Source: Dipodascopsis uninucleata var. uninucleata (lineage: Eukaryota; Ascomycota; Lipomycetes; Lipomycetales; Lipomycetaceae). Taken from it: a DNA stretch of 64,000 nt. Below, piece after piece: positions 823-24,283 of the stretch. The position numbers were made by a program, and so were the translations under genes. The stretch covers positions 310,001-374,000 of the forward strand of contig JAJLTO010000008.1 of assembly GCA_030568195.1 (NCBI GenBank), in the 5' to 3' direction. Position 1 is the first letter of the stretch. Each line of letters begins with the position of its first letter. Under the pieces are notes generated by a model, which made no database searches, was not told the DNA's origin, and saw nothing but the letters and a program-made list of their open reading frames with translations.

Positions 823-2934
823 ATGCCTTATACTGAGTCTGGGGCCAAGGAAGAAAGTAGAGACCAGAAGTCGTCAGAGAGCTCTCAAGGAATCGATAAC
901 ACTACATTGTTTGTTCGATCCTTACCAGACTCTGCGACGTCTGAATCTCTATCTGATTTTTTCTCCAATATCTCTCCTGTAAAGCACAGTGTTGTTGTGA
1001 CGGACAAAGAAACCAAGCGGTCGAAAGGATTTGGATTTGTGACATTCGCACTTCCTTTAGATGCAAAAAAAGCACTCGAGGAAGGCCGCAAGGCGAAGTT
1101 TGAAGACCAACTCTTAAAGATTGACTACGCCAAGAAACGACAGAGAAAGCAGCCAACTGAAGATGAGCAGCCTAAAGAAGTTGATCCAGTGAAGCTTGGT
1201 AGAGAGAATCACCAGCGTCCAAGGCTGATCATCAGAAATATGCCTTGGTCTATCAGGACCCCTGAACAATTAGAAAAAATTTTCAGTCAATATGGTAAGG
1301 TAATAGATGCTACAATTCCTCGTCGAGATGGTGGTAAAATGTCGGGATTTGCATTTATAACTTTAAGGAAATGGTCTTCAGCTGAGAGAGCTGTAAAAGA
1401 AGCAAACGGAATGACTATTGGTGGACGCCAGGTAGCTGTGGACTATTCAGTTAATAAAAATACGTGGAAAGAGCATCTTGAGAATGGTGGGGAACTCAAT
1501 CTTGACCGACGGGATGACAGTAGCTCGGAAAGTGAACAGGAAAATGAGAACGAAGAGGCTGATAATGAAGTTGATAGCGATATGGACGTAGGAGACGATG
1601 AAGAGGAAGATGAAGGCGAAGAATTCAAAGAAGACGATGAAGACGATGAAGACGATGAAGATGAAGATGAATATGCATCAGAATTAGCGATTATCAAAAG
1701 TGAGAATCGCAAGAATACCACTGATGAAAATACAGTGTTTATAAGAAATTTGTCTTATTTGAGTACAAAGGAGATATTGGAAGAACATTTCACAACCAAT
1801 TTTGGTCCTGTAAAATATGCTCTACCAGTAATTGACAAGGAGTTGGAACAACCAAGAGGTACCGGTTTCGTTTGCTTTAAAGATAATGCTTCTTTTGAAA
1901 AATGCCTCGAATCAGCCCCAAAACAAGTTGACGAATCGTCAATTTTGATAGCCGATGACGTTGATCAACGATATGTTCTTAACGATCGAGTTTTACTTAT
2001 TTCACGTGCAGTGAATCGCGAGCGCGCCGGAAAATTGGCCGAATCTAACGCAGTCAAGAGACAACTTGCCATGGGAAAGGATGGTAATGCGGGAAAAGAT
2101 AAGCGACATTTGTTTTTACTTAATGAAGGTCGTATTACACCAGAATCGCCTCTGGGACAGATGATGTCCAAATCCGATCACGACGTTCGTCAACAATCAT
2201 TGGCACTGCGTAGACAACAACTGCGTTCAAATCCTTCTCTGCATCTTAGTTTAACTCGATTAGCTGTTAGAAATATCCCGAGAAGCGTCACGGCAGCACA
2301 TCTCAAGCTACTAGCTAGAATGGCTGTAGTCAAATTTGCTGAAGAGGTCAAGCAAGAAAAACGCCCTAAGCTGACCAAAGACGAGTTGGAAAGATCAAGG
2401 ATTCATGATGAAGAGATGGGTGCTAAAGAAAAAAAAAAGAAGCATGGTATTGTAAAGCAAGTGAAAATTATCACTGAGAGCAAAGATGCGAAGACAGGGA
2501 GAAGTAGAGGATATGGATTTATTGAGTACTCATCTCATAGGCTTGCTCTAATGGGACTACGATGGCTCAATGCTCGAGACATTGGCCCACGTGATATTGA
2601 AAAGCTTGACAAAGAGCTCAATAAGAATGCAAAGAGAGTGAAAGAAAAGGAAGATGTTATGCCTAAGAAAAAGTCGAGCGTTATTAATGAAAAAGAGGAT
2701 CTTCGTACAAGAAGGCTTGTCGTAGAATTTGCAATCGAGAACATAGAGGTTATAAAGAGAAGATCTGTGCGAGAGAAGAGAGCTAAAGAGCGCGCGCAGA
2801 ACAGAGATGAGAAAGTAGAACCAGAAAATATGATTAACAAGACCGTTCAGAGGAAAGAGCAGAAGAAAGGCAAGAAGAGAAAGTTCAACAGCGGCACAAA
2901 GAAGAATTTCTCGAAGAAGATAAGGAGCTCGTAG
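823..2934 (+). CDS. NOP4: Nop4/RBM28-type nucleolar RNA-binding protein, four RRMs
   Basis: This uninterrupted 703-codon gene encodes the nucleolar protein needed for early 60S ribosomal subunit assembly and 27S pre-rRNA processing. RRM1 spans about residues 26-104 (RNP2 LFVRSL, RNP1 KGFGFVTF). RRM2 spans about 134-212 (LIIRNMPW, MSGFAFITL). A long Asp/Glu tract at about 227-290 contains a tandem GACGATGAA repeat. RRM3 spans about 303-400 (VFIRNLSY, GTGFVCF). RRM4 spans about 490-600, ending in RGYGFIEY. The tail is strongly basic (KKGKKRKF), fitting nucleolar retention. Length and four-RRM order match Nop4 (685 residues in S. cerevisiae). The ATG at 823 is the first in frame. The next gene, PAC2, lies 263 bp downstream on the same strand. 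Confidence 0.93.
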   Translation: MPYTESGAKEESRDQKSSESSQGIDNTTLFVRSLPDSATSESLSDFFSNISPVKHSVVVTDKETKRSKGFGFVTFALPLDAKKALEEGRKAKFEDQLLKIDYAKKRQRKQPTEDEQPKEVDPVKLGRENHQRPRLIIRNMPWSIRTPEQLEKIFSQYGKVIDATIPRRDGGKMSGFAFITLRKWSSAERAVKEANGMTIGGRQVAVDYSVNKNTWKEHLENGGELNLDRRDDSSSESEQENENEEADNEVDSDMDVGDDEEEDEGEEFKEDDEDDEDDEDEDEYASELAIIKSENRKNTTDENTVFIRNLSYLSTKEILEEHFTTNFGPVKYALPVIDKELEQPRGTGFVCFKDNASFEKCLESAPKQVDESSILIADDVDQRYVLNDRVLLISRAVNRERAGKLAESNAVKRQLAMGKDGNAGKDKRHLFLLNEGRITPESPLGQMMSKSDHDVRQQSLALRRQQLRSNPSLHLSLTRLAVRNIPRSVTAAHLKLLARMAVVKFAEEVKQEKRPKLTKDELERSRIHDEEMGAKEKKKKHGIVKQVKIITESKDAKTGRSRGYGFIEYSSHRLALMGLRWLNARDIGPRDIEKLDKELNKNAKRVKEKEDVMPKKKSSVINEKEDLRTRRLVVEFAIENIEVIKRRSVREKRAKERAQNRDEKVEPENMINKTVQRKEQKKGKKRKFNSGTKKNFSKKIRSS

Positions 2935-17092: not shown

Positions 17093-19070
17093 ATGTTTGT
17101 CAGCTCGAAAATGATGTATGCAGTCGCTGCAGTCGCTGCAGCCTTACTCTCTAGTGTTTCTGCCACTACCACTTGTGGAGCTGGTAATCTATGTCCAGAG
17201 GATCTTCCATGCTGTTCGCGTGAGTGAATTTTTTCCTAATTTTTCTCGGTGTTGAAAATAGAAGAGGGAATTAAAAATAGAAATATTTGTCGATTCCAGT
17301 TACATGTATTTACTATGGGTTATGGCCATTCGCGCTCTACTATTATATGCGTTTGCGCGACAATGCTGTGCCGAGACCAACTCTACGACTTGCAGATGCT
17401 TGCAGCTAGGAGGGTTGGTGTGCTTGGGCGTAATGGCGATGATTTATAGGAAGCCTTAGCAATTATCGCTACGGCAGGATGGAAATTAATGATTAATGAT
17501 ATACTTAAATTTTACTTGGCACACTACTAACAGTTCATTTCTTGAATATAGAGTACGGAGAATGTGGTATGTATATTTATTTTATGCAATTAGGATTTAT
17601 TTATTATATTAAAAATCATATAACAACCTTACTACACGCGTCTCGTTAGCGTTTCTTGGTTTGAGCTGGAGCAAGAGCATTCCTTGCTAACAAAGTCTCG
17701 TTCTAGGAACTGGTTCATACTGTGTTGGTACCTGTGATCCCAGATACTCCTATTCTTTGGATGCATGTGCCCCATCGCCAATCTGCAAGAATGGTAGCTA
17801 CACCTTTGATAACTTGAATGATTTCGCCGTTTCGACGAACTATCTCGGTGACGCTGATAATACCGATTGGGTTTCTTCCGGATATCCAATGAATACTGAC
17901 GACATTTTGCTTGTTACCATGCCCAATGGAACCACTGGTACTGTCATCGCTTCTAGTACTTACGTTTGGTATGGTAAGGTTAGCGTCACCATGAAGAGTT
18001 CCCGAGGTAGCGGTGTTGTCACTGCATTCATTCTATTTTCCGACGTGCAAGATGAAATCGATTATGAGTTTGTAGGTTATGAGCTTGATTCTGTTCAGTC
18101 TAACTACTACTTCCAGGGAACTCTTGATTACGATAACGCTGCTACCATTAATTTAACGGACACTTTTGCAAACTGGCATACTTATGAGGTTGACTGGACA
18201 GAAGATTCACTTACCTGGCTTATTGATGGTCAGACTGCTCGTGTACTTTACAAGAAGGATACGTATAACAGCACTTCACAAGAGTATATGTTTCCACAGA
18301 CTCCTTCTCGTGTGCAGTTGTCTCTCTGGCCCGGTGGTTTATCTTCAAACTCCGAGGGTACCATCGAATGGGCTGGTGGCTTAGTAGACTGGAATAGTGC
18401 GGATATGCAGGAATACGGTTATGACTATGCTATGGTTAAGGCTGTTAGCGTTACTTGCTATAATCCACCTTCTCACACCAACCAGACTGGTACCGCTTAT
18501 CGATATATTGACCGTAATGGTACCGCGGAGTCTGTTATTGTCACAGATGACAACACTGTTCTTGCATCTGACAATGACAGTGGCCTGAATATGTCTTCCG
18601 GTGCTTCTTCCGCTGTGTCTTCTACTACTTCAACTAGCTCTTCGTCTACTTCATCATCTAAGACCTCGTCCTCATCTTCATCGTCTTCCTCGACTCACTC
18701 CTCCAAAACCTCGACATCTGAGAGCAGTTCTGCGTTATCCTCATCGTCGTCCTCGTCGTCCTCGTCGTCCTCGTCGTCCTCGTCGTCCTCGTCGTCCTTG
18801 TCTTCTTCTTCGTCCTCTTCTTCGTCACCTTCGTCATCTTCATCATCTTCATCGTCCTCTACCTCTAGGGGTACTACTACTTCTAATGGAGAAACTCTCA
18901 TTGGAGAAACCTCCACTGGTTTTGCTACTGCAAGCTCAACCGATAGCGGCTTTTCTCAAGACGGTAGCTCCTCTTCATCTAGCAACGTCGCTCCTGGATC
19001 TGGTCCAACGTACGGAACGATGATTTTGTCTCTCATTATGTTCTTGGGCGGTTTCTTGTATATTGTTTAA
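17093..19070 (+). CDS. CRH-family cell-wall chitin transglycosylase (GH16), GPI-anchored
   Basis: Exons 17093-17219, 17552-17566 (15 nt) and 17707-19070; 501 residues. A signal peptide (about 1-23) is followed by a small Cys-rich chitin-binding module whose CPEDLPCCS, QYGECGTGSYC and GTCDPRYSYS pieces come from three exons. The GH16 catalytic domain carries DEIDYEF (Glu164, Asp166, Glu168 in the spliced protein), the Crh nucleophile and acid/base motif. A long Ser tract (about 285-390) and a hydrophobic C-terminus (MILSLIMFLGGFLYIV) indicate GPI attachment. Crh enzymes join chitin to beta-1,6- and beta-1,3-glucan in the wall. Intron 1 is 332 nt and intron 2 is 140 nt; the first has a perfect TACTAAC branch. 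Closest to the Utr2/Crh2 type, which keeps the chitin-binding module. Confidence 0.92.
18661..18870 (+). repeat. Serine-codon microsatellite in CRH
   Basis: Tandem TCGTCC/TCATCG-type trinucleotide array encoding the Ser-rich stalk. Such arrays vary in length between strains, so the stalk length is probably polymorphic. The complementary strand shows a spurious Asp/Glu-rich frame. Confidence 0.85.
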
Positions 19071-22969: not shown

Positions 22970-24283
22970 CTAAAATCTCCTTCGTAGTGGAACAGCAGGT
23001 TTGGAATTTGAGAGCTGTTGAAACATTTTTCGGCGTCTGTCAGCTATTTCATCCTGTGAATGTGATATTGGATGCTGATCTAAAGGTGAAATTTGGTCAT
23101 TCAATGCTTCTTTATGAGAACTTCTTGTGGGTGAACTTTGTACTTGCAGAGGAAAAGTTGATGTAGATTCCAGTGTAGCGCCAGACTCATTATCTTCTTT
23201 ACTGGTTATGTGCTTCTTATGGTGTCTCAAATTATTTTTGGAAATTTCGTGACTGTCGCTATCACTGTCGCTATCACTGTCGCTACTCTCAGATGATATC
23301 CATTTACGTTTTCCAACTATGGCTCCTTTTACAGTTGCTTTGCTGACATATTCTGAGTCTGAACCTGAGTCTGTTTCGTTTGATTTCAGAGACTTATTGC
23401 GCAAGGCAGATTGAGACGTCAACTTCTGCCGATTAATTTCAGGACTGTCATTACAGAAAGCATAGGAGGCGAGTCGAGGTATACGATCTAAGGCACTACT
23501 ATCCATTGATATACCATGGCTATCAATGATTCCAGAAGATTCATTAACTAGATCAGGGATTGAATCACTAGAATTTATTCTATTGTGCACTGGCCATGTA
23601 TTCTGCCACTGCTGAAAATCAAACTTCTCTAAAGATGATTTATTCTTTCGTGGCTTATAAGCAGAATGTACTTCTCTCAAAATAGATAAAATAGCAGATA
23701 GGTGCTCGTCTTTTTGAGCTATTACACCTCTCAATGCCTCTAATTGTTGATGAAGGGATTCTATAGTCGCAAAGCAAGACAAAATCATTGGGCGAGAAAC
23801 TGAGCCACTAGAGTCTTCCAAGTTGCTCAGCTGAAATGACCAATTCAAATTCAAGCCTGAATTTGCCAGAGGTGCTGATACACTTAATAAAATAATACCA
23901 TTGATTTGTGAATTTGAGAGCTTTACTGTTGCATCCGGTTGCTTACCTGACAATGACCCCTCTAGCATTTCTAGAAGAGCACTCAGGTTGGAGGGAATGC
24001 TTACATCAACAGCAAGTTTCTCGTTCTATTCATCGAACATTAGCCACACTACACACTATATATTTCGAAACATACAAGCCAGGCGACAGTTCCTTACATT
24101 GGCACGAGTAACTATTTCGTTCCGATCAAGCGATTCTGACCAAGAAGATACAAGATCAGTAACTATGATACTATAAGTTGGCACACGAGTATCGAACTCG
24201 TAGCTGTAGAGTAACGGAGGCAATTTCGCAAAACTCTCCTTACTCTCAACAACTAATGTCTTCCAAGGAAGTTGACTAATCAT
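22970..24283 (-). CDS. NEJ1: XLF/Nej1-like non-homologous end-joining factor
   Basis: Exons on the minus strand: 24283-24098 and 24025-22970; 413 residues; 72-nt intron with GTAAGG donor, GCTAAT branch and AATAG acceptor. The N-terminal head domain contains LPWKTLVV, YSIIVTDLVSSWSESLDR and LNWSFQL. It is followed by the stalk helix (IESLHQQLEALRGVIAQKDEHL), as in XLF/Cernunnos. The second half is a Ser/Asp-rich disordered tail with an SDSDSDS tract. The protein ends PLRRRF, a basic run capped by Phe that resembles the Ku-binding motif at the XLF C-terminus. XLF/Nej1 works with the XRCC4/Lif1-ligase IV complex in end joining. It is divergent from DAP1, sharing a promoter of about 310 bp. Confidence 0.85.

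Follow-up and report, generated by a model that had tools for sequence, protein, structure and literature searches.

A 15-nt exon, probably constitutive, completes the predicted chitin-binding module of a CRH2/UTR2-type enzyme in Dipodascopsis uninucleata, a genome with further micro-exons down to 4 nt

The splicing of a small exon in a yeast that uses intron definition was reportedly demonstrated by experiment in S. pombe by Romfo et al. in 2000, whereas the case described here is inferred. Elsewhere, fungal micro-exons are known but only sparsely described (PMC11121469, PMC12940212). The first is the 20-nt micro-exon of Trichoderma Xlr2 which, like the CRH2 exon presented below, is a tiny internal exon in a cysteine-rich fungal domain and was missed by gene prediction (PMC11121469). 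The Xlr2 exon is reported to be glucose-dependent (PMC11121469), whereas nothing found here points to regulation of the CRH2 exon. The second is the exon of Fusarium CYP621A, which was found by manual curation and likewise restores a conserved protein motif; it is 1 nt long and confirmed by reads (PMC12940212), whereas the CRH2 exon is 15 nt long and predicted from the sequence. A search of the open-licence literature on micro-exons in Saccharomycotina returned nothing, by title, on nuclear micro-exons of yeasts, and no catalogue of micro-exons in a yeast was present among the matches listed, as judged from titles and the beginnings of abstracts.

The locus lies in a stretch of 64,000 nt (hereafter the window) from D. 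uninucleata var. uninucleata, positions 310,001 to 374,000 of contig JAJLTO010000008.1, in an assembly (GCA_030568195.1) of 16.2 Mb and 25 contigs. A fragment of Prp8 from this genome, aligned with solved structures, gave 2926 and 2448 bits for the two best chains, followed by 2272 for a human-type chain, 2225 for S. pombe spp42 and 2034 for an S. cerevisiae-type chain, scores that do not place the lineage. The G+C content of the window is 46–48% between positions 24001 and 32000, versus about 39–43% in the remaining part.

The window contains a CRH2/UTR2-type gene with three coding exons, read and spliced from the sequence (Table 1), whose joined frame comprises 501 codons and a stop codon. 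S. cerevisiae UTR2/CRH2 and C. albicans UTR2 have an N-terminal CBM18 module followed by a GH16 domain with both Crh motifs, as is the case here. In D. uninucleata two introns interrupt the module, whereas S. cerevisiae UTR2 is not known to contain an intron. The GH16 domain scores 161 bits on PF00722 (cut-off 22), and its best relative among solved structures is A. fumigatus crf1 (E 6e-36). Aligned with a fragment of S. cerevisiae Utr2, the protein shows 49% identity, with CCSQYGECGTG aligned free of gaps. The two motifs, which go by the names DEXDXE and GTIXWXGG in PMC6458159, are present in the translation as DEIDYE and GTIEWAGG. An N-terminal CBM18 following the signal peptide is found as well, provided that the micro-exon is included. 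No homologue was detected when genome contigs were searched with the protein, or when genome contigs and viral contigs were searched with an alignment, in a set without relatives of this species. As judged from its sequence, the gene encodes a cell-wall transglycosylase of the CRH2/UTR2 type, whose small CBM18 is interrupted by two phase-1 introns 15 nt apart, and the GH16 score, the crf1 match and the CBM18 obtained with the exon all agree with the family assignment proposed in the initial annotation. Chitin-glucan transglycosylase activity and a GPI anchor are putative; the Ser-rich tail and the hydrophobic C-terminus were seen by eye.

The chitin-binding core PCCSQYGECGTGSYC is obtained only if the 15-nt exon is included, QYGECG being encoded by one base of exon 1, the 15 nt of exon 2 and two bases of exon 3. 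Both junctions of exon 2 are phase 1, and skipping keeps the frame: CCSQYGECGTGSYC is then replaced by CCSRTGSYC (PCCSRTGSYC at the junction), and the number of cysteines in about the first 100 residues falls from nine to eight. Retention of an intron leads to a stop, at codon 45 for intron 1 and at codon 75 for intron 2. On the Pfam CBM18 profile (PF00187), the translation scores 14.6 bits with exon 2 and gives no match without it; the S. cerevisiae Utr2 sequence scores 19.9 bits, both values being below the cut-off of 27.8. Among solved structures, the module with exon 2 matches wheat-germ agglutinin (E 1.2e-4, which is a sum over several repeats, the best single repeats giving 13–15 bits) and hevein (E 0.0037), and the module without exon 2 matches nothing at E up to 1. 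The skipped form has one cysteine fewer and matches neither the CBM18 profile nor a solved structure. In the structure alignments the micro-exon encodes the QYGxC stretch common to the agglutinin repeats, which, from hevein biochemistry, presumably contributes an aromatic residue to the sugar-binding face as well as one of the core cysteines. The initial annotation had claimed that the cysteine-rich core is restored only with this exon, that both junctions are phase 1, and that skipping stays in frame at the cost of one cysteine and with an arginine placed in the core; conceptual splicing and the agglutinin and hevein matches confirm these points.

The gap between exons 1 and 3 (487 nt) offers 56 possible exons of 3–60 nt bounded by AG and GT. 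Thirteen of them are in frame and open, and a single one, the 15-nt exon, has full signals, combining a good donor with a branch site and an acceptor of the pyrimidine-AG type; the TACTAAC branch site, ATAG acceptor and GTATGT donor previously ascribed to this exon are all present. We then used 20,000 dinucleotide-preserving shuffles of the gap as a null. Some AG/GT exon restored a hevein-type core in 12 of the 20,000 and some exon with full signals occurred in 2,388, while no shuffled gap contained an exon combining full signals with a restored core (0/20,000). In the window, the succession of branch site, acceptor, short exon and GTATGT was found once for 0.06 expected, and at least once in 5 of 100 shuffles; TACTAAC itself is not enriched there (8 found versus 7.12 expected). 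Genome-wide, the signal patterns were no commoner than in reversed controls (19 versus 16, 85 versus 102 and 10 versus 15), and the same holds for two further patterns (87 versus 140 and 39 versus 48). The count of chance patterns was consequently dropped as a proof of the micro-exon, and the case for exon 2 is made by protein homology and signals together, not by signals alone.

This lack of genome-wide enrichment would also fit a mis-built gene model, the true exon 2 being a different one, or the locus being a pseudogene with a chance match. A 33-nt in-frame exon starting at 17534 would likewise carry YGECG, but its AG stands directly behind the branch site. With no shuffled gap reproducing a full-signal exon that restores the core, and with a reading frame of exon 3 that stays open over 459 codons and encodes a GH16 domain at 161 bits, we regard a mis-built model as very improbable. 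The predicted CRH2 gene model, micro-exon included, is established by homology in combination with the sequence, and the initial annotation had placed the micro-exon correctly to the base.

Micro-exons, defined as internal exons of 30 nt or less between introns with a donor, a branch site and an acceptor, were searched for in the whole assembly. Since the pattern counts do not exceed those of reversed controls, matches were sorted by protein homology. The first pattern gave 19 rows, 8 of which were accepted (CRH2 included); 61 of the 85 rows of the second pattern were read, 10 of which had already matched the first, with 4 further exons accepted; the third gave 10 rows, 2 of them accepted; and the 16-nt exon of a Zn2Cys6 factor gene was added by eye. 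Because the patterns fix the donor and the branch site, the signals of these other micro-exons provide no independent support. L022 (ARF1-like) and L011 were discarded as plain coding sequence running over GTATGT.

At least 14 further micro-exons of 4–30 nt were accepted by homology in 13 other genes, two of them weakly, which brings the total with CRH2 to at least 15 micro-exons in 14 genes (Table 1). The view of the initial annotation that exons of this size are rare and need special recognition finds no support in this genome. In ARP3, the 4-nt exon stands in the context GTCATGG/GTAAGT ... TATAG/ACAA/GTATGT and is required to obtain VVMDNGTG. CCT5 and the COX9-like gene have no Pfam match either with or without the micro-exon; Pfam being uninformative for these two and for RPS27, the alignments with solved structures carry their case. 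The weakest of the accepted candidates, retained only weakly on predicted homology, are those of the MFS transporter and of the TPR/CHIP-like protein. The Zn2Cys6 gene at G000:C9:345k, with its two micro-exons in a row, is a closer parallel than CRH2 to Xlr2. The micro-exon comes directly after the first coding exon in 9 of the 14 genes, as read. Lengths are multiples of three for 8 of the 15 micro-exons, CRH2 among them, and not for the other 7. Half of the 14 others (7/14) are therefore exons whose skipping would break the protein, and the break in frame was demonstrated for four micro-exons; core genes with frame-shifting micro-exons include ARP3, PP1, HSP70 and a cullin.

A further possible Zn2Cys6 micro-exon, of 28 nt, is located at G000:C1:1147673-1147722, where the sequence reads like KKIRCDGT before GTGAGT.

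Table 1. Features of the CRH2/UTR2-type gene (positions in the window), accepted micro-exons of other genes, and the CRH1-like gene (author's genome coordinates where given).
Feature	Position	Strand	Length	Remarks
CRH2 coding exon 1	17093..17219	+	127 nt	Signal peptide and first half of chitin-binding module; ends CCATGCTGTTCGC; phase 1; start codon picked by eye
CRH2 intron 1	17220..17551	+	332 nt	Donor GTGAGT; acceptor ATAG
Intron 1 branch-site consensus TACTAAC	17525..17531	+		Its second A precedes exon 2 by 22 nt
CRH2 micro-exon (exon 2)	17552..17566	+	15 nt	AGTACGGAGAATGTG
CRH2 intron 2	17567..17706	+	140 nt	Donor GTATGT; acceptor TTCTAG
Intron 2 branch-like TGCTAAC	17685..17691	+		
CRH2 coding exon 3	17707..19070	+		Rest of chitin-binding module, GH16 domain, Ser-rich stretch, hydrophobic C-terminus (judged by eye), stop
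ARP3 micro-exon	G000:C13:420600-423600 (L077), ~1574-1577		4 nt	ACAA; aligns with solved homologues
COX9-like micro-exon, possible	G000:C2:1276253-1276292 (L039)		6 nt	GTCTTG; gap-free, E only 0.001
PP1 catalytic subunit micro-exon	G000:C3:1660604-1660656 (L053)	reverse	7 nt	ATTTGTG, giving ICGDIHG; Pfam above cut-off
MPC micro-exon			15 nt	160.2 bits with versus 134.3 without; Pfam domain above cut-off
Zn2Cys6 factor micro-exons	G000:C9:345327-345394 (L017)		16 + 27 nt	Consecutive; 27-nt exon in Pfam domain above cut-off
Cullin micro-exon			17 nt	Inside Pfam domain above cut-off
TPR/CHIP-like micro-exon			17 nt	Moderate; best stretch of two above-cut-off matches stops before the exon residues
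RPS27 micro-exon			18 nt	Gap-free versus solved homologue; Pfam non-discriminating (53.4 with versus 53.8 without)
CCT5 micro-exon			18 nt	Gap-free versus solved homologue
HSP70 micro-exon			20 nt	Pfam domain above cut-off; TACTAAC farther upstream than the branch match 6 nt from the acceptor
Low-molecular-weight phosphatase micro-exon			21 nt	Pfam domain above cut-off; intron 2 of 68 nt
Dynamin micro-exon			29 nt	Inside Pfam domain above cut-off
MFS transporter micro-exon			30 nt	Pfam match below cut-off
CRH1-like GH16 gene	G000:C7:455068-455686 (L026)			One intron; no chitin-binding module

Because other equally tiny exons exist in the same genome, the CRH2 exon is probably a routine part of its gene and not a switch. 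We consider it very likely to be a constitutive micro-exon spliced by sequential intron definition. Inclusion in nearly all of the mRNA, the sequential order and the use of intron definition in this species are what we infer, intron definition being carried over by analogy from other yeasts. A review describes intron definition as the mode for introns that are small relative to larger exons (PMC8624252). Across each intron, the spliceosome would bring a donor together with the branch site and the acceptor, and the two introns would be removed one after the other, either of them possibly going first. Once one of them is out, the 15 nt would belong to an exon of normal size and would never need to be recognized as an exon themselves. 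At least 13 other genes in the genome would be handled in the same way. In ARP3, the branch A is located 15 nt before the 4-nt exon and 19 nt before the next donor; these 19 nt leave little room for both sites at once or for a complex spanning the exon.

This spacing also bears on the proposal that the exon is included but depends on a dedicated micro-exon factor, for example a PRP40-type protein bridging across the exon. PRP-40/PRPF40A is reported to be required for the splicing of micro-exons in worms and in mouse cells (PMC8378409, PMC11463390). However, the exons of 4, 6 and 7 nt found in the same genome provide almost no space for a cross-exon complex, and we give such a dependence very little credence.

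The initial annotation had also suggested that the exon could turn chitin binding on and off. The micro-exon would then be skipped under some conditions, producing a CRH2 with a disabled chitin-binding module and an altered site or strength of enzyme action. A length of 15 nt and phase-1 junctions on both sides preserve the frame on skipping, the 20-nt micro-exon of the Trichoderma Zn2Cys6 factor is reported to be switch-like (PMC11121469), and CBM18 is reported to tune Crh activity in yeast (PMC6458159). About half of the other micro-exons are in frame as well, and a third would be so by chance. The Xlr2 precedent keeps the idea from being far-fetched, but nothing found supports it, and we judge it very unlikely: with 7 of the 15 micro-exons not multiples of three, these exons do not as a group look made to be skipped, skipping would cost a module built on disulphides one of its cysteines, and a separate CRH1-like gene without the module is already present in the genome. 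Furthermore, no title among the matches listed in the open-licence literature reports splicing of CRH2/UTR2. A broader micro-exon programme, in which exons of 4–30 nt are common and the in-frame ones, CRH2 included, are skipped under control, is hardly credible; if true, it would put the chitin targeting of an enzyme that cross-links the wall under the control of splicing.

Read as a constitutive micro-exon, the CRH2 exon is a further case of a known kind, routine in this genome, and taken alone it changes no picture. Its consequence is for annotation: without the 15 nt, CRH2 would appear to have no working chitin-binding module, and the same risk exists for ARP3, PP1, RPS27, CCT5 and others. 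Of greater interest than the CRH2 exon itself is how many very small exons are predicted in core genes of the genome. With exons as short as 4 nt in such genes, a small fungal genome would offer a natural and convenient test of how a spliceosome that works by intron definition handles exons too short to be recognized.
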